Shown here piece by piece: positions 12,837-42,217 of a stretch of DNA of 42,217 nucleotides. Origin of the DNA: Leucogyrophana mollusca (taxonomy: Eukaryota > Basidiomycota > Agaricomycetes > Boletales). The notes beneath the pieces are model-generated. The model was not told the DNA's origin. It did not search any database and worked only from the letters and a program-made list of their open reading frames with translations. Where the stretch lies: assembly GCA_021014945.1 (NCBI GenBank), contig MU266561.1:1-42217 (forward strand), written 5' to 3'. Position numbers and translations under genes: made by a program. Numbering within the stretch: the first letter of the stretch is position 1; the number at the start of each line of letters is the position of its first letter.

Positions 12837-15800
12837 ATGGTGTCAACATTTGCGTGCGGTGGCGGCTCATGCTCCCGGAAGTTTGACGATCAACGCGGGC
12901 TCACCAAGCATAGAAAAAGTTGCGACTCCTACCGGAGAACTGCTATCGCAGCCTCATTAAAGCGGCAGGAGCGGGCGAAAGTGCTCGAGAGGCGACGCGC
13001 GCAGTCAAGTCACAATACGGTGAGTCCGTATCATACTACGTCGCTGGCAAACTAGTATTTATGGGTATTATAGACCGCTCCTATTGACCATGCAGGCAAT
13101 GTTGGAGACGCGGACTCGGGAACGCAAGCCGGCCTAGTTGCTGTCACGGTTGGAGCCTCTTCCAGTTTGATGGACGTCGATCCTCCGGCAGGCAACGAAA
13201 CTTGTGTCGACACGGGGGCGTTTCGGTCGCTTCCAATCTCCCCGTCAGGACTCGTTTCACCCACCGATAACTCGATACCTACCAGCGCTGGTCAGCATCA
13301 AGACGTTCCTATGCCAGATGCCGTAGATGACGCTGATCGCCCAGCATCTGTGAGCGAAGATGTTCGAGCGGCTAATGATAACGCAAGTTGTAAGTTTCAC
13401 TTTACTGGCGTCCACAGCTGTTGACCGTCAACACTTCTAGCGAGCCGAAGGCCTCGACGCACTATCCGCTTGCCCCGAAGATTCATCGACGAGCCACCAC
13501 CAGAGCCTGCGCTCCGACTTCTACCCCAAGCTGCCGAACCTCCCCAGCCTAGCATCGTACGTCGAGTTATACTCCATGTGCGCGACACTATGCGCACTGC
13601 AATCAATTCCTTCGGACTTCTACGTGAATACCCCCACCGCCCATCTTTTGAACCCGACCTTTCTGTTCCTACTAAAGACCTTTCTGTCTCATCTCGTCTA
13701 CCGGCAAAAGACCAAGAGGACCTGTCACCCGAGGATCCCTCACCCGGTTCTCCACATCCTTTCCCAAACATGACGATCTATCGCCTTATTCAATGGATGA
13801 ACTCCGGAAGCAAGCAAAAATCTGAGGGAGAAATAACGCGGCTGGTGAAGGATGTCTTGCTGGCTGAGGATTTTAACGTCGCAGATCTGAAGGGGTTCAG
13901 TTCCAAGAAATATCTCAAGTTGCTGGATAGCCACAAGCGTGACACATCGCACCCGAACGCAACGTCTTTCCCCGACGACTGGAAAGAAGAAACTGTTACG
14001 ATACAGATACCGACGAGGGACAAGGACCCTTCTGGAATGGGCAAAACGTACTCCGTTCCCGGATTCCATTTCCGCCCCCTGGTCGGGGTCATTCGAGCAG
14101 CATTCGCCGAGGCGCAAGCCAAAGCCTTTCATCTGTCACCTTTCAAGAGATTCTGGACGAGCTCCGTCGACGGAACGGAACAGCGTGTATATGACGAGCT
14201 ATATACCTCTGACGCGTGGCTTGAGGCACACAACGAGCTCCAGAAACAACCATTTCAACCCGGGTGCAAGTTGGAGCGAGTGATCGCGGGTCTCATGTTG
14301 TTTTCAGACGCTACACATCTTGCCGACTTTGGCACAGCAAAAGCATGGCCGCTATATCTATATTTTGGGAATCTGTCCAAGTATGTTCGAGCGTCACCTA
14401 CCTCAGGCGCGTGCCATCTGGTCGGATTTTTGCCCTTGGTGCGTGTCACCCGGGCAAAAGGTTATCTCTTGAATATGTTCTTATGCTCTTCCCACCAACC
14501 CAGCTTCCGGACAGCGTCCAAGAAGTCATCAGTACCCTTAACAAAATGTCAAGGAAAGCGATATCGGCTCTTAACGCACATTGCCGACGGGAACTTTTTC
14601 ATGCATGCTGGAACACTCTAATGGATGACGAATTTCTCGAGGCCTATCGCCATGGGATTGTCGTCCGCTGCGCGGATGGAATTTTAAGGCGGATTTTCCC
14701 TCGTCTGTTCACATACTCCGCCGACTATCCGGAGAAGTCAGTCGCAATTTTCCGTTCTTACGCAAACACAGCTAACACCGTCGCAGAATCCTTCTTGCCA
14801 CGGTCAAAGATTTGGGTCGCTGTCCTTGTCCACGATGCTATACATTGAAATCTCTTGCGGATAATGTCGGCTTGTTGAGAGATATGCGATCACGGTTAAC
14901 CCAGTGTCGACAATATTCGCTGGAGAAGATCCGAAGGGCTAGGGATTTCATCTACAAATCCGGGTTTGCTCTGGACGGGCCCGCCATCGACCGCGTCCTC
15001 AAGCCTGAATCATGGGTTCCTACGATTGTCTGTTCTCCTCGATCTCCGTTTCATGAGCTTTATCTCACGTTCTGGCCAGAACGCGTTCGCGCAAAAACTT
15101 GGCCCTCTCGGTCTGGACCCCTTTCGAATGCTTGTCGTCGATTTCATGCATGAGTGCGAGCTGGGGACCTGGAAAGCCCTTTTCACGCATCTCATTCGTC
15201 TGCTGTACGCACTTCCACAGGGAGAACAGCACGTTGCAGAGCTCAACCGAAGGTAACAATCATGCGTTTTCTCGGACACAAAAACTCACAATTATGATCA
15301 CAGATTTCGGCTGATACCCACCTATGGGCGCGGTGTGATTCGTCGCTTTTCGAACAACACGTCTCAAATGAAGAGATTAGCCGCAAGAGACTTCGAAGAC
15401 ATACTGCAGGTTTGTACGTTTCACGTTCAGATGTCGTCGAATGTATTCACACTTCTTGGTAGTGCGCAATGCCGACGTTTGAAGGCCTTTTCCCTCGAAC
15501 GCACAATGAAATCATCTTAACCCTACTGTATCGATTTGCGGAGTGGCACGCGTACGCAAAGTTGCGGCTGCACACTGATTCCACGTTGGATCTTATGAGC
15601 GATACATTCACGGCGCTCACGAAACAACTGCGGCTATTTCGCAAAAAGACTTGTGGCGACTTTCATACAGTTGAGCTTCCCAAGGAGAAGGATGCTCGTG
15701 CGCGAAGGAAGAAAGGGAAGAAGGCTTCGACCGGCGAGTCTGCTCCGAGATTGAAGCAATTCAACTTGCGCACCTATAAGTTCCATGCGCTTGGGGATTA

Positions 15801-23976: not shown

Positions 23977-26900
23977 ATGGCAACCCATCAGGCACTACTC
24001 CCGGTAGAAAAAGTCCAATTCTTGCTCGCCTGTATGTGTGACCTCGCAGTTCTGTATGGCTTCATTCAGATGAGTGGGCTCACCTTTTGCCATCATCTCT
24101 TGCAGCCGTTGAAGCCAATGGCTTGCCCGCCTCATTTCCCATCTGGCAAGTAGGTTGTCACGTTGTCATTGAGGTAGAGGGACAACGGAGACAGACGACC
24201 ACTGTACCGCCTTCGTCTCATTCCAATGCTGAGTGGGATGTCAACTTTCCATTGTACGTTTGTCACGCGGTCGTAAAACCGCCACACAGCGACTTATCCT
24301 CCCACGTTCTGCTCAGTACTGCGGACAGAACGGCGCTGATCTCGATTCGTATTTACCAATCGTACGCGGTATGTTTGTGGAGGAGGAGAACGCTTTTTGC
24401 AGAGAGCGTGGCTACTGTAGAAGAATTGGTCCAGACATGTAGTGGACGCGGACACACAGGTTACTCGACTTTCCTCGATCTTTTTTATTTCCTTGCGCAG
24501 TTACTGATTGGTTCTTCAGTGTTCACGATTCCAATGGGACAACAGAAGGCTGCCTGTCCCACCGTCACCATAGCCTTGAAGGTGCAACACGTGGTTGCAA
24601 CCGAGAAGGACACGCTTGGTGCACCAGGGAGCACCGATGTGTGTATCATGACCGTTTGATCGTTGCTGTACCCACCGCTGAAGCCAGCATTCTATCTAGG
24701 GAATGTCGAATGAGGGCTCAAGCCAACTAACGTTGACAAATGTTGCCATTGAAGGGCAACTGGCGAACGATGGGGTTGGACCTCATGACGCTAGGGGCAG
24801 CATCGAGGTGCGCACCGAGCTGCTCAAGGTATGATTGACGTTAATGACTATGCTGTATTTTGCAGAAGCTGGACGAGGGCGAACATCAGTCAATTCACGC
24901 TGGCCATGTCAGCGGAGCGCCTTCACACACTATCGACAGTACTCTGGTGTGTACCCATTGCTGGTGGTTTGATCGAGGGTGCAGACGATGTTCACGAACA
25001 CACTGTATCTCACAGAGTCTGAACGTCACTGATCAAGAAAATACTCGCAAGGACGATGTGGCCGATGGCAACTCGACCCTAACTCTCCAAAGTACAGGCG
25101 ATGAGACAAGATCGTACACCTCTCGCGAGAGCACCAGAGTAAGAATAGGCTTACTCGATACTTTGCCTGTGCTAAAGCCAGCTATGCTATATCTCGCAGA
25201 GCTCGAAGGAGGGTGGGCAGCAAAGCATTCACAGCGACGATGGGGGCAACAGCCAAAGCAATCCAACAGTAGGTGACGATGGGAGCTCAAAAGTTTCCGG
25301 TAAGAGTGTCAAAGTACGTACGAGGCTGCGTGTAGTTCAATTAACACTGATGCGTTGCTCTGTGCGTCCTAGAGTGCGAGCGATGATCAGAGACGCGGTA
25401 CCTTGGGCAATTTGTCCGCTGCAGGCTATAGAAATGTGTCCAGACTAAGCTATGCCGCCAACATGCTTTTTATCCGCTTCTACGAAACAAATGACGTGAC
25501 ATACCTGGACCAGGCGATTGAGCAACATCACGCTGCTCTTGCATCCTGTCCACATGGTCATCCCGACCTCGCCAGCATGCTGAGCGGTCTAGCCGTTGCC
25601 CTTAACTCCCGCTTCAACCTGCGAGGTGCACTGGTAGACCTAGATGAAGCCATCAAGTGCAATCTCGACGCTCTCCAGCTGCGCAAACCCGGACATCCCC
25701 AGAGATCTATGACATTGAGCAACCTCGCCGTCGCCCTCACCGCCCGCTTCAAGCACAGAGGGGACATCGCAGACCTGGTGAAAGCCATCGAGTACAATCG
25801 CGCTGCACTAGAGTTGCGTCCAGAAGGAAACCCGGATAGATCCATGACGTTGAGCAATCTTGCTGTTGCCCTCACTGCCTCCTTCAACAAGCGAGGCGAG
25901 ATGGCGGACCTGGAGGAGGCCATCGACTGTAACCGTGCCGCACTCCAGTTGCGCCCACCAGGACATCCCGAGCGCTCCATGACGTTCAGCAACCTCGCCG
26001 TCGCGCTTTACACTCGTTTTCAGCAGATCGGTGACGTTGCGGACTTGGAGGAAGCCATCGAGCGCAACCGTGCCTCTCTCATGCTGCGTCCGCCAGGACA
26101 CCCCGAACGATCCATGACACTCAGTAATCTCGCCGTGGCCCTCTACGCTCGTTTCAACAGGCACGGCGAGACGAGAGATCTAGAGGAGTCCATCGAGCAC
26201 AACCGTGCTGCATTACAGCTGCGTCCAGTTGGACACCCTGAACGATCCATGACGTTCAGCAATCTCGCCGTTGCCCTTTACACGCGGTTCAAGCAGGCCG
26301 GGGACGTCGTCGATTTGAAGGAGTCCATCGAGTACAATCGCGCAGCGCTCGATCTGCGTCCAGAGGGGCACACGGAGAGATCCATGACCCTGAGTAACCT
26401 TGCCGCCGCTCTTTCAGCTTATTTCAAGCAGCAAGGTGATCTGGATAGCTTGCAGGAGGCCATTGAGTGCAACCGTGCCTCACTCGAGTTGCGTCCACCT
26501 GGGCACCCTGATCGATCGATGACGCTGAGCAACCTCGCTGTTGCGCTCTATTCTCGCTTCACACAGCTCCACGAGGTGTCAGACCTACAAGAAGCCATCG
26601 AGTGCCATCGTGGTGCACTCCAATTGCGTCCTAGAGGCCATCCCGAACGCTGCAGGTCATTGAACTACCTCGCTACTACGCTCTCCGCTCGCTTCGAGCG
26701 GCTTGGTGATGCCGCCGATCTCGCTTCTGTGTTTGATCTTTTGGGGGTCGCTCAGGACGAGACTGTAGCGGGCCACCCGATCCTACTTGACGTCCACTCG
26801 ACACTTGCATCGACCTACCTTCTCCGTTATTCCGTCTCGAAAGAACCGGCTGATTTGTCCTGCGCCTTTAAGCAGCACGAGTCGGCCGCCACATTTGCGA

Positions 26901-28495
26901 GTGCGGGCTCGTGGCGTCAATTCCAAGCTGCGCAATGCTGGATCAAGGACGCGGAACAGCACAGCCATGTATCCTCATTGGATGCATACAGGAATGCTTT
27001 GAACACTCTGAATCATTATATCACAGCAGCCTCCTCAGTTGTTTCACGTCATGAGCTGGTGAAAAGGGCCACCTCTACCCTAGCCTCAGATGCTGCCTCC
27101 TGTGCTGCCCGCCACAACGACCCCGCTGCTGCGGTGCAATTCCTAGAGCAGGGAAGAGCCCTTACGTGGACTCACATGGCGCATCTCCGAACTCCACTTG
27201 ATCAGCTTCGGAGTGCAGGTGGCGATGCCCTGATGCTGGCGAATGAATTTCAGCGGCTCAGTTCCCAGCTCAATACGTTCTCAGACGGCAGTGGAAGAAA
27301 GAAGGGAATGTCGGCCGACGAAGAAGCACGCCATCATCACGAGTTAAAAGTGGAATGGGACTTCGTTGTCGCCCGCATCAGACAGCTGGAGGGCTTTTCT
27401 CGCTTTCTGATGGCCCCACTTTACGCTGACCTCCAGGAGGCCGCACGGGAGGGTCCCGTTATCCTGGTCAATGCGAGTCGCTTTTCATGCGACGCGTTCA
27501 TCGTACAACATGCCGGAAAACCCATTCACGTACCCCTCCCGCATATTACCTTCGAAGACGTCTCCACAATGTCGGCAGACTTGGCACGCCTCATGAAGAG
27601 TTCTCGCGAGTGCACGTCGGAAAGAGAGGCAGAGAATCAGTTGATTCGTCTGTTACGTGAAGTATGGAATCTTGTTGTTTGCCCTGTTGTCGACCAGCTC
27701 TTACTCAGTCCGATTCCGGTGGGTTCACGAATCTGGTGGTGCCCTACCTCGAAATTCACTTCCCTCCCACTGCACGCTGCCGGGCCATATCGTAAAGGCA
27801 GCCTCAACTTATCGCATCATTTCATTTCATCCTATACCCCGACACTGTCTGCTCTTATCCGGACGAGGAGAACACTCCCGGCCCCATCGCCCCCGCCCAG
27901 ATTTGCAGCGATAGGCCAAGAAAAGCCCGGCGGGGGGAACACTGACAGTGAATTACACAGCGCCAATACGGAACTCGACCTAGTCCACAGCTTTGTTCCT
28001 GCGGACGTGCCTTTTGTCCAGCTTAGCGATAGCGCGGCCACGCGCGATGCTGCCTTGCACGCTCTTGACGAAAACAACTGGGTCCATCTCGCTTGTCACG
28101 GTCTCCAAGATGCAGCGCAGCCATTTGCGTCACGGTTTTCCATGTACGATGGGCCACTCTCTCTACTCGACATCATTAGGGCCAATCTCAAAGATCCCCG
28201 ATTCGCGTTCTTGTCAGCTTGTCACACTGCAGTTGGAGACGAGACTACTCCGGACGAGGTTATTCATCTGGCGGCAGCCATGCAGTTCGCTGGTTTCCAA
28301 AGTGTTATTGGGACGATGTGGGGAGTGGACGACAGTATGGTGCACCATATGGTGTCGGCGTTCTACGAGAACTTTATGGGAGAAAGAATGGATTGCACGA
28401 AGGCAGCTGAAGCGTTAGTTATTGCAGCTAGGAACGTCATGAAGAAGAAGGTCCCGTTGTACCAGAGAATTGTCTTCATTCACATCGGAGCCTGA
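23977..28495 (+). CDS. C2-TPR-CHAT protease-like protein
   Basis: Eight exons splice in frame: 23977-24031, 24106-24253, 24317-24638, 24700-24828, 24866-24946, 25016-25138, 25200-25313 and 25373-28495, about 1364 residues. A further phase-neutral intron near 24461-24520 is possible. The ATG at 23977 was chosen because it alone feeds the first splice in frame. The N-terminus looks like a C2 domain (FLLASVEANGLPASF, VVIEVEGQRRQT), followed by a Ser/Gly-rich linker. Then come about nine TPR-like repeats with a period near 42 residues (RSMTLSNLAVAL ... LEEAIE.NRAAL.LRP.GHPE). The C-terminal CHAT domain has the catalytic pair His in HLACHG (28097-28099) and Cys in LSACHTAVGD (28220-28222), then VIGTMWGVDD. 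CHAT is a caspase/separase-related cysteine protease fold. C2 may bring it to membranes. Substrate unknown. Confidence 0.9.
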
Positions 28496-28894
28496 GATCG
28501 CATTGTATTGTAGATACATGATCGTAGCGTGCTCTACTAGTGACTTGTACTATTGGCCAGCAACCTTTCTTGATAGTTAGTCACTGTAGCGGTTTATATC
28601 TGGTCAGAAGCATCGAAGGAAGATTGCTCACCAGGGCAAGATTGATCTGTAGGTATTAAGATACCTTGGGTTCAATACTGGGTCACCAAGCACCAAACGA
28701 CTGACTTATGTATATTGCATGACACCGATCTCTCGCAAAACCCACACCTTTGCTGAACTTCGCAGCAGGTTAATGAATATACGTGGTGCCCGGAACACTG
28801 CATGGCGCCAAGGTGGACATGGCCACCATATTGCTTCACCAGCTGCTCTCGAGCTAATAGGGGCTCGAAGGAAGTTGGATTGATATTATGTTCA
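28496..28894. other. Spacer after the C2-TPR-CHAT gene
   Basis: Nothing beyond the presumed 3' untranslated region and terminator of the upstream gene was seen. Confidence 0.35.
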
Positions 28895-29025
28895 TTCATG
28901 ACCAACGAGTTTCGGCCTGCGAGCGGCAGATGTACCGGACACATGGGATCTAAGACTGCTGTTGGACAGCGTAGAGATGAATATCGCATCAGTCTCACTC
29001 GCGCGAAACTAGGTTGTAGGTACAA
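28895..29025 (+). repeat. Direct repeat of the 31.67-31.80 kb flank
   Basis: The stretch from GACCAAC (about 28895) to GGTACAA (29025) matches 31671-31795 base for base at most positions, including the shared CTGCTGTTGGACAG and ATCGCATCAGTCTCACTC. Here it runs straight into the amidase 3' flank; at 31.8 kb it is interrupted by the retroelement. Confidence 0.8.
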
Positions 29026-29069
29026 AGTTATTTAGCCTGCGGACTTCTCCCACGATTCCAATGCGACCC

Positions 29070-29265
29070 CTATGCCGTTCTCGGGGTCGCTCTACTAAGC
29101 AACCCCTCAATAAGCTTCACACCCGCGAGAACCTTCTCTTCTTCAAGGCGCTGCCCCACAATCTGTATACCCAAGGGCAGCCCGTGCATGCTATTCGCAT
29201 CATAAAGTTCATACGGCCTCTCCGCGTTCCTCGGTTTCAAACCGGGCCATCTTCACGTCCAAGTA
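29070..29265 (-). pseudogene. Amidase C-terminal remnant
   Basis: From about 29210 the minus strand reads ELYDANSMHGLPLGIQIVGQ, then RLEEEKVLAGVKLIEGLL, and stops at 29072-29070. This is nearly the same as the C-terminus of the intact amidase at 37180-39185. Upstream, similarity continues for about 55 bases but out of frame, and the catalytic region is absent. The piece is a duplicated gene end, not a working gene. Its 3' flank (TTATTTAGCCT.CGGACTTCTCCC) also matches the intact gene's flank. Confidence 0.8.
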
Positions 29266-31795: not shown

Positions 31796-31938
31796 TCTAT
31801 GCGGTGCGGTGCTCAGGTGATTCGCGGGGGGAGAAGGGAGAGAAAGCAAATGGATATTAAACGTGTGTACATATGAAAGCAAAAGAGTGAATGAGAAAGA
31901 GGCGGGGGTACCAAACTACGAGAGAGCGTTGATTGGGC

Positions 31939-31957
31939 GAAAGCCCGAAGGGCTTTC
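31939..31957. terminator. Hairpin in the 3' region of the DIRS-like element
   Basis: GAAAGCCC, loop GAA, GGGCTTTC: a perfect 8-bp stem with a 3-base loop, 130 bases downstream of the recombinase stop. It may mark the transcript end or take part in strand-switching during DIRS replication. The role is inferred; the stem is seen directly. Confidence 0.4.
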
Positions 31958-32088
31958 CGGCCTGGCAGGGTGTCCAATCCTGAGGATGAAAGGTGAGCTG
32001 CGATTCCCATGGTGGTAGGAGTCAGCGACGCATCCAGCGAAGCTTGATAACCCCGAGAAGAAGGAGGTGGACTTACCCGCGATGAACG

Positions 32089-33354
32089 TTAACGTACCGG
32101 GGGCATCGTGTGACGTGTGAACGTTTCGAACACTGGTGATGCTTGTAGGTATGGCGCCAGGATTTGTGCGTGATGCCTTAAATAGAGGGTGAAAGCTTCA
32201 CTCGACCACCTGCCCATGGTTTTTACTACGTCGAAGGGAATGCCGCGCAGTAGGTACTCTAGCGTCCCGCCTATGCAAAGACTATGTCCTTTTAAGTCTG
32301 GGAGGTCCGGGTGGGTGGATGCTAGGTCTGAGAGCCGTTTCGTGACTTCTTTCTTGGTGAGAGGTCTCGGACCTTTGGGATGGGACCAAGTGAAGAGATG
32401 TGCTGATGCATCTGCTGGATTAACGCGGAGATGGTTCGATAGGGCGGCGGTTGGATCTGAGAGTCCCTCTTGGGTTGCGAATTGGGTTTCTTCCCCGAGA
32501 ACGGGGGCGCTTTTGGTCGAGGGGATGTGGAATTTGGTCACCGTTAGGCCGTTTCTATCTGACTCGCGAGCCATGTGCGCTCTCGTGACATGTTTCGTTG
32601 GGTCGAAGTTCTTGAGGGCTGGGACTGTGAACTCTCCGAGCCTTGCGACGCAGTAGAAAACTGTAGTGATGCACGCGAAAATTGCTGCGTCTCGTGGGTC
32701 GTCTAGGTTGAGTTGGTTGCGTAATACGACGATTATAGCAGGGGTTATGGGCGCACGTTTGGCACGTTTCGAGGACGGGGGGGCGAGACGTGTTGCTCCT
32801 TCGAGCATGGCTTTGAGTTCGTCTGGCTTTATCCTCCATTGGTGGCCATGGAGGAGGTGCCAGGCGCGAAGACCGGACGCGTAGTTGGCAAGAGCTGTGC
32901 CGGAGTAGGATCCCGCACAGCTAGATAAGAAGGCTAAAAGAAGGTTTGGGTCGACGGGGCAGCGCGCTGTATCTGGGATGTTATGTGAATCACAATATAC
33001 ATGAAAAACTAGGAGACTGGCTCCGTAAGTTTCTTTCGTGGAGATTGCCCAGGAGGCGCCTATAACTTCGAGTATGCGGTCTAGTTGGGCGTCTGTGATG
33101 GTTACGCTCTGGGGGGGATTGGATTGTGCTGCGCGTGGGTGGGAATTGGAGGGGAGCCAAAGGCGAAGCCGTTCTTTCGCGAGACAGTGGGGGCGTAGTG
33201 GGGATGGGCGGGGTGTGAGGCTGGGACGGTACTGCTGTGGTGTTGCCGGTATGAGTGCTAACTGGGGTGTTATTGGGGCGTCGAAGCGCTTGTTGGCGTC
33301 TCTGTCAACATTCGGCGATTGCTTGTTGGACGAGTGGGTCTTCTTCGCGTCCAT
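32089..33354 (-). CDS. Tyrosine recombinase of the DIRS-like element
   Basis: The chosen ATG at 33354 gives 421 residues and overlaps the RT/RNase H gene by 50 bases in another frame; the frame itself is open back to 33831. The N-terminal core-binding part reads ASWAISTKETYGASLLVFHVYC and YASGLRAWHLLHG. The catalytic part holds the first Arg in CVARLGEFT, then LKGHSLCIGGTLEYLL, VVKTMGRWSSEAFTLYLRHH with the Tyr nucleophile. In tyrosine recombinases the second box is H-x-x-R; here it is HSLC, the codon TGC at 32277-32275 in place of an expected CGC. A catalytic Arg is therefore missing, so the enzyme is probably inactive although the frame is intact. It would otherwise insert circular cDNA without target duplication. 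Confidence 0.88.
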   Translation of the reverse strand: MDAKKTHSSNKQSPNVDRDANKRFDAPITPQLALIPATPQQYRPSLTPRPSPLRPHCLAKERLRLWLPSNSHPRAAQSNPPQSVTITDAQLDRILEVIGASWAISTKETYGASLLVFHVYCDSHNIPDTARCPVDPNLLLAFLSSCAGSYSGTALANYASGLRAWHLLHGHQWRIKPDELKAMLEGATRLAPPSSKRAKRAPITPAIIVVLRNQLNLDDPRDAAIFACITTVFYCVARLGEFTVPALKNFDPTKHVTRAHMARESDRNGLTVTKFHIPSTKSAPVLGEETQFATQEGLSDPTAALSNHLRVNPADASAHLFTWSHPKGPRPLTKKEVTKRLSDLASTHPDLPDLKGHSLCIGGTLEYLLRGIPFDVVKTMGRWSSEAFTLYLRHHAQILAPYLQASPVFETFTRHTMPPVR

Positions 33355-35281
33355 TCTCTGCGCGTCTCCTTTCGTCTCCTTCTTCTCTGAGTCTGATCCT
33401 GTTGATGTTCTTAGCGCCTGTAGAGGAGTATTCCCCGTTGCGGAGTAGTCGAAGTTCGACAGGAGATAAGGGCGCGGTCGCGTCAATGACGAAGCGTTGG
33501 ACGGATTCGTGGATTGGGGGCGGAGGGAGGAGAAGGTGCGTAGGCGGGAAGGTTCCGCGGGACGGGTCGTCTGCAGGGTTGTTGGCGCTGAGAACGTACT
33601 GTGTGCGGAAATCGAACGATTTGGGCGAGTCGTGAATAGTGTTGTGAATTCGCTTGAAGATTTCGTTGACTTCCCTGTTGCGGTGTCTTCCTTTCCACCA
33701 TCCTTCGACGATGCCTGTGTTGTCGCCGTAGACGATGAAACTTCCCCCTCCGTTGAAAAGTCGAGTGATGGTGAGTATGAGGAACTCGAAACCAATCGCT
33801 TCCGCCCAACCAATGTCGCGTTGGGCGCCATGCGTTTTCCAGCCTGGAATTAGTCTCCAGGCTCTCCACTTTGCGCCGATGGTAATGCCGATGCCGACTC
33901 CTGAACTGGCGTCTGAAAAGGCTTTAATGTCGATGTGGAGGGGGGGAAAACGGATGGGTCGGGCTACGCTGCCTGACTGTAGGACTGAAAGCCACCAAAT
34001 TAGTTCTTGTGCCACGCCTTTCCCTGCCCGGATGGGCATGAAGGGTTTTTTCGAGCAACCGCTCAGCATGTTTTCCAAGGCGACTAGGTAAGCTCTGCCT
34101 CGTGGGATTGCTGCGCAAGCGTGTAGTAATTTACCGTATAGTTCACGTACGTCTTGAAGGACGTGTGTTGCGCGTCCTTGCCATTTGTGAATGGCTGCTA
34201 CGTACTTCTTGACTTTGCCGGGGCTCAAGGATACCATGCGCGTTTCTAGATTCCACGAGAAGCCAATGTAAGTTGTGATTGAGCTGAAAGGTTGGTCTTT
34301 GCTTAATTCCCAGGGGATTCCTAGTCGAGCGGAAATTTCATCGATATCGCATAGGCTGTATGTGAAGAGGTAGTCGTGATTTGATCGTGGTGAAGAATCT
34401 GAAAGGTCTCGTATTGGTTTGCTACAGTCTTCGCTGAATTCTTCTGTTGATCCGTCGTCTCGGATTTCTCTGCCGTACCAGATTCGGCCTCCATTTTGAC
34501 GCATACCTACTTTGGCGATTTCGTGGCTCCATCCTTCTCTGAGTAAATTATAGCTGGTGATGTGTTCTTTCCATATTCGAATGAAAACGTGGTCGTCAAC
34601 CCATTTGTCGAGGGGACCAATGCCGTTGTGTCTCAGAATCTCGGCCCCTGCGTCTGCAACGTGACCATATGCTCCTGCTGACGGGGAAGCGCTGAAGGCT
34701 GTACATGTGTCTGCATAGAAGTTTGTGTCTGATTCTCTTATCACCGCCGCGGCCCATTGGGAAGGGTGCAGGGGGATTGTGCGATAAGCTTCCGCGACGT
34801 CCCGGGTGGCTGCCTCAGATCCCGGCGGCAAGCGGGAAATTAACTGAAAAAGGACTGAGAATTTACCCCAGGTCGTGGGGAAATTGTCGGAATTAGCGTG
34901 TGCATTGATAGCGGGATTAGGGAAAAATGAAGATACAGTTGATGGGAATGAGAAGTTCTGTATTAACCGGAACTTTCCGGGACGACCTGGTTTGGGAATG
35001 ATAGACATGGGGGACGTTTGGAATGGTCCTATTAGTTCCAGGGTTTCTGTTGCGCTGAAGGGGCCAATGTAGCGTCCTTTAGTAACTTCCTGGGATATTA
35101 GCTTATCGAAGTGTTCCGCGTAAAGTATAACGGAGTCTCTGTTCGGCGGGCTTTGTACATGAGAGATGCGCGGGAAATCTAAAGTGAATCCCGATCGAAA
35201 GCCTGCTGGTATCTTATAAAACCGATCTAAAATGCCGGCCTGACGCAATTCACGTTCCCATACGTCGGCGTTGTACGGCAT
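33305..35281 (-). CDS. Reverse transcriptase-RNase H polyprotein
   Basis: The ATG at 35281 is the first after the gag stop at 35291-35289; the product is about 658 residues. The RT region contains PMSIIPKPGRPGKFRLIQNF, motif A as TRDVAEAYRTIPLHPSQW, and the YxDD-box equivalent DKWVDDHVF. A connection region (TYIGFSWNLETRMVSL) precedes an RNase H-like domain with AFSDASSGVGIG, the acidic helix WAEAIGFEFL, VYGDNTGIVEGWW and SANNPADDPSRG. All expected acidic residues appear to be present. The same frame is open as far as 36403, but that part is antisense-like low complexity over the gag intron. The end overlaps the recombinase gene. Confidence 0.88.
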   Translation of the reverse strand: MPYNADVWERELRQAGILDRFYKIPAGFRSGFTLDFPRISHVQSPPNRDSVILYAEHFDKLISQEVTKGRYIGPFSATETLELIGPFQTSPMSIIPKPGRPGKFRLIQNFSFPSTVSSFFPNPAINAHANSDNFPTTWGKFSVLFQLISRLPPGSEAATRDVAEAYRTIPLHPSQWAAAVIRESDTNFYADTCTAFSASPSAGAYGHVADAGAEILRHNGIGPLDKWVDDHVFIRIWKEHITSYNLLREGWSHEIAKVGMRQNGGRIWYGREIRDDGSTEEFSEDCSKPIRDLSDSSPRSNHDYLFTYSLCDIDEISARLGIPWELSKDQPFSSITTYIGFSWNLETRMVSLSPGKVKKYVAAIHKWQGRATHVLQDVRELYGKLLHACAAIPRGRAYLVALENMLSGCSKKPFMPIRAGKGVAQELIWWLSVLQSGSVARPIRFPPLHIDIKAFSDASSGVGIGITIGAKWRAWRLIPGWKTHGAQRDIGWAEAIGFEFLILTITRLFNGGGSFIVYGDNTGIVEGWWKGRHRNREVNEIFKRIHNTIHDSPKSFDFRTQYVLSANNPADDPSRGTFPPTHLLLPPPPIHESVQRFVIDATAPLSPVELRLLRNGEYSSTGAKNINRIRLREEGDERRRAENGREEDPLVQQAIAEC

Positions 35282-35288
35282 CAGTGGT

Positions 35289-35816
35289 TTAAGCTTTCTG
35301 AGCGCGAGGACATTGATGGGCGCCGTGATTTGCGGACCCGCATCCTGAGCAGAGGTGCCTGTCATCGTGTCTGTCGGCGCATCCTTCGGCGCGTTGCCAC
35401 TTGGCGCAGAGCTGCTTGCCGTCCTTGGTATATAGGGCTTTGAATTTGCGTAAGGAGTGGGTGTCGTGTTTGTTGTCCCAAGTGCGGGCGGCGTCGCAGG
35501 AGATGACTCGATGACGATGGCGGCCGAGACAGACTGCGCATGCTGGGAGGATGTCCGAGTTTTCGTTGTGTGGTCGTTGGTGGGATACGCGCTTTTCGCC
35601 GTGCTCCTGAGCGTTGTTGCGAAAGGAACGCGGGCGTTTGGCCGAGTCTGCGTTATGTTCGTTTGAATCGAAAGGTGAACGAGGGCGTTTGATGGATCCC
35701 CCTCCGACCCTGGCGTAGCGGTTGTCTGCGCCGCTGTAGGACAATCTTGCGATTGCTTCCTGTGATAGGTGCGAGTTAAATGGGTTGTCGGCGATCGACG
35801 GTTGATAGATGAGGGT

Positions 35817-35847
<31 letters not shown>

Positions 35848-36936
35848 GAGAGTGGCGTGTGTCGTAGTAGTGTGCGACGGCCGGTGGTGATGTCGGTACG
35901 TGATGACCGTAGGTTTGGTCGTGATGCCAAACAGTGGGGTGTGCATATAAGACGCACATGATGGTGAGCAGTGTGTGTGAGGAAAATTTGGGGGTGATGA
36001 GTATTCGTCTGGTTACGTTGAAAAACAGGAAACACGAACCTGCAGTAGCTGTTCTCGGTGCTCGTTGTAAAGGCGCTCTTTCGCGTCGAAGAGGAGCGTT
36101 TCGTTGATCTCGGCTAACGAGTAGTTCTTCTCGGTTGCTGCTACTAGGTGCCAGCGTCGTCTTTGGATTCCCTGGTAGGCGAGGAGCGAGCGTTTCTGGA
36201 AATTGTCGGCGCTGTGTCTCCACCTGTGATCTTGTAGTGCCGTCCAGAAGTCGACGAACATCTGGACGCGTTCCTCCGACCATTTGTTGTCTTCCATGGC
36301 GTTGATCATGCGCGGAGCGGCTTCGCTGAATTCTTCCCAAGTTAAGTTCTCGTCTTTGACTACCTTGGTTTTGGGGTCGCGGATTGCGCCGGCTGGAGCC
36401 CAAGAGTGGACGCCGTTCTCGGATGGCATGAGTACGAGTGCGTCGGGGTCTGTGTCGCCGATTGACTGTGCTGCTTCTCTCAAACCGCGGTTGGTGAAAT
36501 AATGGAGTTCGCAGTACTCTCCCTTAGCGAGTCTTCTGGTAGCGTAGACTGCTGGGATGATCGCGTCTTCGGTTGGGACGCCTCGTTTGCGAATGGGGAA
36601 ATACTTCGCTCTGTTCTTCTTGCGATCTTCTTTGCGCGCCTCTTCTTCCTCGTCGCGCTTCGCTACTGCGCGTTGGGCTTCGGTCTCTGCTGCTCTCCTC
36701 TGCTCTTCCTCGTTCCTGGCACGCTCTTCTTCTTCTTGCTGCGCGTCTAGCTCGAGTTGCTGTGCCCAGCGTGCCTTCTCTCGATTGTTGGTGACTCTCC
36801 AGAGGGCTGCGAGGGCATTGGCCGCTTGGTCGTCGGTCAAACCATCTGCGACTAAAGCCGCTCTGTCGGCAGTAAATTCGTCGAGGGTGAAGTCTGGTTG
36901 AATGGCTTCGTTAGGATTTTCTAAAATTCTGGGCAT
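35289..36936 (-). CDS. Gag-like protein with zinc knuckle
   Basis: Two exons, 36936-36040 and 35759-35289, join in phase 0 across a 280-nt intron and give about 455 residues. The N-terminal half has a long Glu/Arg-rich helix (QQEEEERARNEEEQRRAAE). The middle contains LHYFTNRGLREAAQSIGDTD and LTWEEFSEAAPRMINAM, the usual gag-like core of these elements. The C-terminal half is basic and ends with CAVCLGRHRHRVISC and a classic CCHC zinc knuckle, CSGCGSANHGAHQC, for nucleic-acid binding. The stop is seven bases before the RT ATG. The intron reading is inferred from the frames and from the loss of sense in the skipped part, which holds a run of thirty C. Confidence 0.75.
35817..35846. repeat. Homopolymer of thirty G (C on the coding strand)
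   Basis: An uninterrupted mononucleotide run within the proposed gag intron, about 58 bases from the acceptor. On the transcript it is a poly-C tract. It is likely to vary in length between copies and to be hard to sequence accurately. Confidence 0.95.
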
Positions 36937-37020
36937 GATCTTAGCTGGGGTTTTGATGTTAAATCGCGAGTGCGTTGATGCGAAAGAGGCTTAACGAGTG
37001 GATCTGCGCCGGGAGGTCAG

Positions 37021-37082
37021 GTCTACGGCGAGTGCGGAAGGAAAGAGAGGTGCAGCGCCACCTCGCTTCCTTCCGCGTAGAC
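37021..37082. repeat. Interrupted foldback at the right end of the element
   Basis: Arms GTCTAC/GTAGAC (37021-37026 and 37077-37082), GCGGAAGGAA/TTCCTTCCGC (37034-37043 and 37067-37076) and AGGTG/CACCT (37048-37052 and 37059-37063) nest in order, so the whole 62-base stretch can fold. Confidence 0.8.
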
Positions 37083-37085
37083 TCC

Positions 37086-37122
37086 ATTCTATGTTAGCCT
37101 CGTGCCTCGGCTAACATAGAAT
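37086..37122. repeat. Perfect 14-bp stem, 9-base loop
   Basis: ATTCTATGTTAGCC (37086-37099) and GGCTAACATAGAAT (37109-37122) pair without mismatch. The stem lies between the DIRS-like element and the amidase 3' flank and marks the approximate right boundary. Confidence 0.85.
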
Positions 37123-37179
37123 AACAGTTATTTGCTATTATTTAGCCTTCGGACTTCTCCCGCGATTACAATGTGGCCC

Positions 37180-40137: not shown

Positions 40138-42217
40138 ATGACCATGGATCTCGCCACAGCACTCTTTGGTCTCGCTCGCGGGGTGATGGGGCTCAGCGCC
40201 ATCGTTGTCTACTTCATCCCTTGGACTGCGGCACTTATTTATCGAGTGCTCGGGCCTATTCCATGCCTCGCCGGGGTCATTGTCGGAATTGGAGTCGCGT
40301 ATGTGATGCGAAAGTCGGCGGCACTATCTGGCGCGTGCGCGCTGCAGGAACTCATTAGGACGCGACACTCTCAGTCTTGGGTATGCTATCATCTGTTCAC
40401 CTTCACTCCGCGTCACGGGTGCTCATCCCTTCGGCAGCTCGCGTTCACGGTCGATGCTGTATGCACCGCTCTGCTGTTGGGCCTCGTTGTTCTCCGTTGG
40501 ACCATACGCCTAGTACGTCACCATGCCTTCCACTCATATCATACTCAATAATGGTTCTTCCAGATACCCCGCGGCGTATATTTTGCGATTTGGCTTTACG
40601 GCTGGGTAAGCGAGCGCCAACTCGACCTCTTCTGTGGTGGCTGAATCATTCAAAAGGGCGCGTCAGGGGTTACGCTGAGCATCGACCTTGGCTTTTTGGT
40701 AATGTAGCTTTAACTGCAATCGGCGCCACGATCCTAACTAGTTACAGACATTGGACGTCTATCGCGATATTGTCTTCTTGCTATCACTGGTATGTGTTTG
40801 GTCTTATATTCTCCTGGTCGCGGTCTCACCAGTACGCAGGCGGTGACTTTCTGTCGCTGGGTTGTCGTCTTCTACTCAAAGGTATGCCCGTCTCGCTATG
40901 CAGTTAGCTTTCCGTCTAAAGGCTCGTAGCTGGCCCAACTATATTGCTTTATCACATGGACCTACGTGGTGGTACGTGGTCTTGGTTTGAATGATTTCGT
41001 TTTTTGGCTTATTGACGTACAACGACAGTTCGCGAATGCCCTCAGAGCTGTAGCCGACTTCCTGTTGACCATCCCGGCGCACGTCCGTCACAGTTTTCTC
41101 GTCGTCGCCACCTTCTTCGGCAATCTCAAGGTGGCGATCCGCGACCTCATGTACACCCACTCCGGGGATGTGGAGGACTGGCAAGCCGCGTTTGACTGGT
41201 GGGTCGCCGACGTACACGATGCTCTTCCGGCATGTTTGGTGAGTAGCCTGCCCTCGGTCCATTATTGCTTCTGACCGTCACCATTTTCAAGGTCGACGCT
41301 TTCGAAGGCTTGTGTCGCTTTTATTCCGTTTGGCTCACATGGGCTCCAAGCATCGTGACGTGTATCTTCCGCCGAGTTTTCGGGGTAGCCGTCTTCGTGG
41401 TGCGTTACCTCAGCATTTGGCTGAAAGCCTGTCTCACGTTTCCCACCTTCAGGTTGAGGTCCCATTTCTGCGCTTCATCTGGCTGGTAAGTTGTTGGCCA
41501 AGCTCGTTTCTTGTGAGGCGATGCTCATTTATCCACAGTGCGCAATTGGAATTCAGTGCAACGCGTATTCATGGCACGTAGCGGCCACCGCCTTCTCGTG
41601 GTTCGTTATGTGTCTTGGCTGGGTATGTATCTTTTCGCTATTCTCCCTTGCCGGAATTCTGACGAGGTGTATAGGCCACGAGCTTCATGGAAATATACGT
41701 CTGCTTCCTTGGCCTTGTGAGTGTTCCTCGATTTCTTTCCGGGCGACGGTTGCTGAATGTTACTACAGGCGATAAATGCTGCAGAGTTCGTGCTCGAAGA
41801 TGTCAAGATAGTCAGTGTTCATGTATTCTTGTGTCGACCTTTGTGCCTTATAGATATTGCAGCTTGTGGGCATCTACAACTACTGTGTCGTTGGGATCTT
41901 GTCTCTGGTAAGCTTCACTTTGTCGAATCTATGGATCATCAACTCATTGCGGCCTACAGGTGGCCGGCTCGCTTGAGCTCATCGTCGAGCTCGTTGTCTC
42001 GGGCATTCCGTCTTGGGTGTGCACAACCTCGGCCGGATTTGTCCTACCTCAACATAGGACGAGGGGTAAGCTGCGTGCGACGTATGCGCTCTTCGTCTGG
42101 TTCGTGAGGCAGCTTCGCAAGGTGGTGGGATTCTGTACATCCCAGTCGCCTTCCCTGTCTGCTACGGTGCCACTTCCGACCTGGTTTTCCCTGGGTGATT
42201 TCCTCGTTCTCCTACGC
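40138..42217 (+). CDS. Many-exon hydrophobic protein with 42-nt exons (partial)
   Basis: Fifteen exons can be read: 40138-40380, 40438-40512, 40564-40605, 40657-40698, 40748-40789, 40840-40881, 40930-40971, 41029-41238, 41292-41399, 41453-41485, 41539-41622, 41675-41716, 41769-41810, about 41863-41907 and 41960 to the window edge. Introns are 48-57 nt, GT..AG and all phase 0. Seven exons are exactly 42 nt (14 codons); two others are 84 and 210 nt. Exon peptides are hydrophobic and aromatic, for example IPRGVYFAIWLYGW, AVTFCRWVVVFYSK, LAQLYCFITWTYVV and ATSFMEIYVCFLGL. The first exon has two likely membrane helices (MGLSAIVVYFIPWTAALIY, LAGVIVGIGVAYVM). An ATG at 40144 is an alternative start. 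I do not recognise the family. The 3' end lies outside the window. Confidence 0.75.

Follow-up and report, generated by a model that had tools for sequence, protein, structure and literature searches.

Gene Content of the Window

The window analyzed here, 42,217 nt in length, is an entire contig (C235) of the Leucogyrophana mollusca genome, the assembly of which comprises 32.3 Mb in 545 contigs. A gene containing serial exons of 42 nt starts at position 40138 on the plus strand and is cut inside exon 15 by the contig end at 42217. Upstream of it and in divergent orientation lies an amidase gene (PF01425; 38166–39287, minus strand), in a stretch that is common to a second contig, C213. Further features of the window include a match to a Plavaka transposase (13425–14618, plus strand) and an open frame of 1040 residues (25373–28492, plus strand) that encodes TPR repeats followed at the C terminus by a CHAT domain and carries strong internal DNA repeats at 25.55–26.7 kb. 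The TPR-CHAT and Plavaka frames would both suit a member of the Agaricomycetes. A repeat element spanning roughly 5.3 kb (31796–37126) has a copy with 80% similarity on contig C63 and a partial copy with 81% similarity on C405. It is missing at the corresponding position of C213 and lies inside another repeat, an unbroken copy of which is found at 28891–29253. None of its frames had a match in Pfam, but by eye one of those on the minus strand resembles a tyrosine recombinase and another may be a reverse transcriptase, and the element is therefore perhaps DIRS-like.

Structure of the Gene

All exons lie on the plus strand. Exon 1 (40138–40380, 243 nt) provides the start codon and hydrophobic stretches, and exon 2 (40438–40512, 75 nt) is strongly hydrophobic. 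The ATG at 40138 is missing from one of the copies described below (C149), which keeps a second ATG, at 40144. Five consecutive exons of exactly 42 nt follow: exon 3 (40564–40605, IPRGVYFAIWLYGW), exon 4 (40657–40698, GASGVTLSIDLGFL), exon 5 (40748–40789, TLDVYRDIVFLLSL), exon 6 (40840–40881, AVTFCRWVVVFYSK) and exon 7 (40930–40971, LAQLYCFITWTYVV). After exon 8 (41029–41238, 210 nt, with 189 nt in copy C346), exon 9 (41292–41399, 108 nt), exon 10 (41453–41485, 33 nt) and exon 11 (41539–41622, 84 nt), two more exons of 42 nt are found, exon 12 (41675–41716, ATSFMEIYVCFLGL) and exon 13 (41769–41810, AINAAEFVLEDVKI). They are followed by exon 14 (41863–41907, 45 nt, the same length as in copy C195) and by the truncated exon 15 (41960–42217, 258 nt in the window). 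All seven 42-nt exons are preceded by AG and followed by GT. Two donors are off consensus, that of exon 4 (GTAATG) and that of exon 13 (GTCAGT). The 14 introns in the window measure 48–57 nt each and are all in phase 0; a CTNAY branch-site motif is present within 11 of them, in ten cases starting 14–21 nt before the 3′ end, counts that carry no control for chance occurrence. Splicing yields an open frame of 450 codons over the 15 exons. The preliminary description of this DNA, which had reported seven exact 42-nt exons with flanking introns of 48–57 nt, phase 0 at every junction and an open frame of about 450 codons, was thus accurate on each of these points.

With the help of the copies the gene could be extended to 18 exons and 607 codons (a composite), with 17 introns that are again all in phase 0. 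Exons of at most 45 nt make up 372 of the 1821 coding bases of this full model, i.e., about one fifth. Since all internal exons are symmetrical (0-0), any single one could be skipped in frame.

Copies of the Gene in the Genome

A DNA search of the fungus' own genome revealed five further places with similarity to the gene. C213, C149 and C346 (the last over exons 1–11) are 96, 91, and 74% identical to the gene in the window, respectively, the end of C312 is 98% identical, and the start of C195 (from exon 14 on) 71%. Because the ends of C213 and C312 share 402 identical bases, C312 most likely represents the continuation of C213; C346 and C195, which do not overlap, perhaps belong to one gene. 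Every copy, including the one in the window, sits at a contig end, indicating that the assembly breaks in or beside this gene family. Protein searches of the same genome with single exons (exon 8, exon 15 and the tail) returned the known loci and two weak matches (E 0.82 and 1.9), and no further convincing members.

The 3′ end of the gene was read from C149, C213 plus C312, and C195, in which exon 15 has 363, 372, and 414 nt and exon 16 has 60, 60, and 90 nt, respectively, while exon 17 has 54 nt in each; the last exon follows, and the introns are all in phase 0. In C312 a stop codon is found after the residues AALR, C195 reads 38 codons further, and C149 is cut by the end of its contig just before this point. 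C312 and C195 are 74–80% alike from exon 16 to well past the stop (L007 5192–7468 and L008 639–2901), as compared to 71% around exons 14–15. This region past the stop, a gene or a repeat that is unannotated, contains in each of the two contigs a stretch of about 60 nt that occurs twice, approximately 1 kb apart.

Exons 3–7 measure 42 nt in all four 5′ copies, as do exons 12 and 13 in the three copies that reach them. GT-AG borders are aligned across the four 5′ copies, and intron lengths vary freely of multiples of three (51, 48, 55, and 52 nt for intron 2; 51, 52, 53, and 55 nt for intron 3), with eight of the 14 introns invariant in length. Differences in exon length are by contrast multiples of three, as seen in exon 8 (210/189 nt), exon 15 (363/372/414 nt), exon 16 (60/90 nt) and also exon 1 of C346 (in its aligned part, the start codon being unsettled). 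Together with dN/dS values of 0.32–0.53 in all six pairs of copies, these observations make an accidental reading frame very unlikely. At the level of sequence, comparison of the copies demonstrates that the exon structure, the uniform phase 0 and the 42-nt lengths have been kept and that the gene is under purifying selection.

When the diverged copy C346 was compared to each of the other three, dN/dS was 0.25–0.35 in exons 3–7 and 0.53–0.59 in the rest of the gene; dN was 0.145–0.175 in exons 3–7 and 0.249–0.264 elsewhere, at similar dS. Two of the three pairs of close copies show no contrast between the 42-nt exons and the rest (0.38 vs. 0.38; 0.33 vs. 0.37), and the difference in the third (0.09 vs. 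0.54) is largely due to uneven dS. These values bear on the idea that symmetrical exons were selected for variation, with 42-nt exons being skipped or included to give many isoforms, as has been proposed for the micro-exon genes of schistosomes. The symmetry of all internal exons, with the in-frame skipping that it permits, would suit such a role, and schistosome micro-exon genes as well as the NACHT-ANK family of Tuber offer precedents, as far as the available portions of those reports describe them. However, exons 3–7 are the more constrained part of the gene in comparison with C346 and only 372 of the 1821 coding bases lie in exons of at most 45 nt, and we regard this explanation as improbable.

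Exon Lengths and Phases Compared to Chance

Equal exon lengths could in principle be a coincidence or a product of a faulty gene model, if the GT and AG dinucleotides had been picked by chance. We searched for chains of exons of equal length with AG...GT borders, an open frame in phase 0 and introns of 45–60 nt, covering 35 lengths (18–120 nt in steps of three) on both strands of ten pieces of DNA (∼114 kb), four of which contain a 5′ copy of the gene. Chains of at least five equal exons were obtained for none of the other 34 lengths and only for 42 nt, where their number agrees with a single chain in each gene copy. One chain of four exons occurred at 21 nt. In six Markov copies of the window, searched on one strand, chains never exceeded three exons.

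For a local background we used 118 predicted genes with 577 internal exons, of which four are 42 nt long. Against this rough frequency, a length of 42 nt in seven out of the 13 internal exons corresponds to P ~1e-12, and to P 2e-9 with a generous background of 2%; both are to be read as orders of magnitude only, as the length was picked after being seen and the predictor is noisy. It over-predicts on both strands, also opposite this gene, and its exon and phase numbers are therefore rough. With the Fusarium phase ratio as background (215/534, taken from the accessible part of its source), phase 0 in all introns has a probability of about 3e-6 for 14 and 2e-7 for 17 introns, again as orders of magnitude. 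For orientation, the mean exon length in genes of Ganoderma lucidum is given as 230 nt in the available part of the genome report (PMC3342255).

A simple predictor, for which the splice signals were set by hand and this gene was excluded from training of the codon model, returned the series 42, 210, 108, 33, 84, 42, 42, 45, i.e., the lengths of exons 7 to 14. The same predictor joined the 5′ part of the gene wrongly and built a chain of 42, 210, 45, and 45 nt in unrelated DNA, a 40-kb background sample (L053); this chain was considered as a possible relative and rejected, as the surrounding gene looks spurious. These two failures and the two off-consensus donors speak for a coincidence or a faulty model, whereas the copy comparison, the chain test and the recovered lengths of exons 7 to 14 speak against it. 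We consider this reading very improbable, and the copies, the dN/dS values and the chain test have already largely refuted it.

The Encoded Protein

The composite protein of 607 residues did not match any Pfam family at E ≤ 1, nor was there a match at E ≤ 10 when the diverged 5′ part and the 3′ part were used as queries, and a sequence search of the PDB returned no match at E ≤ 1. No relatives were detected in viral contigs searched with exon 8 or in contigs of prokaryotic genomes searched with the part of exon 15 inside the window. The preliminary description knew of no fungal family with this design, which is consistent with the empty Pfam results and with the literature, where neither such a family nor a serial 42-nt exon design in fungi was found among the matches listed, which were mostly openly available papers.

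The same description had called the encoded sequence hydrophobic. Judged by a hydropathy window alone, several hydrophobic stretches indeed extend from exon 1 through the end of exon 15, with exons 3 and 4 staying below the cut-off for membrane segments, while the last exon is polar and, by eye, rich in serine, arginine and proline. This profile suggests that the product is a polytopic membrane protein, a putative function that follows from hydropathy. Over exons 2–14 the autocorrelation of hydropathy has a helix-like pattern (lags 7, 11, 14, 18, 25, and 32), and the strongest of several spectral peaks lies at 3.65 residues.

Register and Similarity of the 42-nt Exons

For the equal lengths the preliminary description had offered two explanations, a modular unit of 14 residues kept by structure or a very old duplication of exons. 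When the seven 14-residue modules are aligned in register their mean BLOSUM score is −3.7, whereas shuffled sequences score −11.1 (sd 1.6). Polar residues accumulate at module positions 3, 6, 10, and 13. A shuffle that preserves hydropathy classes gives p 0.008 for the similarity among modules. For a stricter control, sets of five plus two 14-mers were placed elsewhere along this protein. Against these placements the register of all seven modules reaches p 0.008 (hydropathy) and p 0.003 (BLOSUM), and that of the second block (exons 12–13) against the first (exons 3–7) p 0.018. For exons 3–7 alone, 17% of placements are as good (p 0.17). In leave-one-out comparisons an offset of zero ranks best in two of the seven modules, second in four and fifth in one, so that the register is heptad-like rather than unique. 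A unit kept by structure thus receives modest support from the register of the full set (p 0.003 and 0.008) and of the two blocks (p 0.018) and from the constraint seen against C346, but not from the register of exons 3–7 taken by themselves.

Beyond the 42-nt exons, only exon 2 (p 0.036) of the ten others tested fell below p 0.05; exon 14 reached p 0.069 and exon 11, which at 84 nt has twice the length of the unit, a borderline p 0.055 (rank 2 of 14), and exons 1, 8, 9, 10, 15, 16, and 17 did not fit. The 210 nt of exon 8 correspond to 5 × 42 nt, and it was considered as five fused modules; this was rejected, as it is out of register (rank 5 of 14, p 0.28).

At the DNA level no direct repeats of at least 25 nt were found, and units of exon plus intron align hardly better than shuffles (−0.6 vs. 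−1.4, sd 1.0), without clear excess. The aligned 42-nt exons on their own show a slight excess of identity (12.8 of 42 positions vs. 10.8, sd 0.6; p 0.003), which is highest at the second codon position (0.26, 0.35, and 0.30 for positions 1, 2, and 3). At this level the exons lack clear similarity, as had been noted before; for a very old duplication, the slightly raised identity is in favor, and the missing direct repeats and the shuffle-like units are not.

Origin of the Exon Block

What can be stated most safely is that the family is small and genuine, that its members are probably membrane proteins, and that their serial 42-nt exons are inherited and constrained. The best explanation, to which we would give about even odds, is that the gene truly codes for protein, belongs to a small family, and has a 42-nt block that would derive from an old duplication and evolve under helical constraint. 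A serial block would then have formed when a single 42-nt exon was duplicated in tandem long ago, and the units would subsequently have diverged under that constraint. Each exon would supply 14 residues, or about four helical turns, and, being symmetrical (0-0), could be added, lost or skipped with the frame and roughly also the helix face preserved. The introns are presumably removed by ordinary intron-defined splicing, and the product would be a protein of about 607 residues, held in the membrane by several hydrophobic helices and ending in a basic, disordered-looking tail. Tandem exon duplication is the most likely origin of the block, plausible but unproven, and the four-turn helical module is likewise a preferred but unproven interpretation of each exon; the slight identity among exons and the lack of a unique register weigh on opposite sides of the question of duplication.

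The main rival is a regular gain of introns, by which an older continuous sequence coding for membrane helices took up many introns with a bias for phase 0 and regular spacing, 42 nt being the spacing of insertion or a size limit. This could account for the lack of clear nucleotide similarity between units and for phase 0 in all 17 introns of the full model, also around exons that are not repetitive, and the P450 genes of Phanerochaete chrysosporium commonly contain small exons, as stated in the accessible part of the source (PMC1184071). However, seven spacings of exactly 14 codons need not result from insertion, the two blocks have a register in common despite their separation (p 0.018), and independent gains are unlikely to be uniformly in phase 0 (∼2e-7). 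We consider it a possible but rather unlikely origin.

Extending the duplication reading, it is tempting to speculate that this membrane family is specific to fungi and has grown as a 42-nt phase-0 exon, equivalent to a four-turn helical unit, was duplicated serially. Gene architecture would then be helix architecture, and the number of exons, which may vary among species, would set the number of helical units; this is a tentative idea that we hold with some doubt. If the family occurs in other fungi and the number of 42-nt exons differs among them, the duplication of exons could be followed alongside the growth of a membrane protein, which would allow a test of old ideas on exons as structural modules. 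Serial exons this short are easily missed and may trap gene predictors, and relatives may therefore be unannotated elsewhere.

Comparison with Known Systems

Repeat proteins with one exon size are known from the fibrillar collagens with their 54-bp exons. Like these, the gene described here has equal, symmetrical exons matching a putative structural repeat, but unlike collagen it has no clear amino-acid repeat, only a weak register in hydropathy. Among basidiomycetes, the P450 genes of P. chrysosporium are similar in having small exons and frequent short introns of 45–55 bp, although their small exons are of mixed sizes and a serial array of equal lengths is not mentioned in the available part of that report (PMC1184071).

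The micro-exon genes (MEGs) of schistosomes, according to the accessible portion of the source (PMC4350168), form a gene family with runs of tiny symmetrical exons, defined by such exons over most of the coding region and by products that occur in glands or secretions where parasite and host meet. The runs of small, symmetrical exons and their occurrence in a gene family are shared with the gene in L. mollusca. In the latter, however, small exons account for about a fifth of the coding bases (372 of 1821) rather than for most of the coding region, the product looks like a multi-helix membrane protein, and isoforms would be hypothetical; in the share of small exons the gene thus departs from the MEGs. 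The NACHT-ANK genes of Tuber melanosporum, as described in the available part of their report (PMC4986451), are a fungal gene family that uses multiple micro-exons and in this respect resemble the family found here, but their exons are codon-sized and encode NLR-like proteins, whereas here the exons are of 42 nt and no Pfam domain is recognized. Judging from what these sources describe of the MEGs and of NACHT-ANK, serial small exons are a known gene design.
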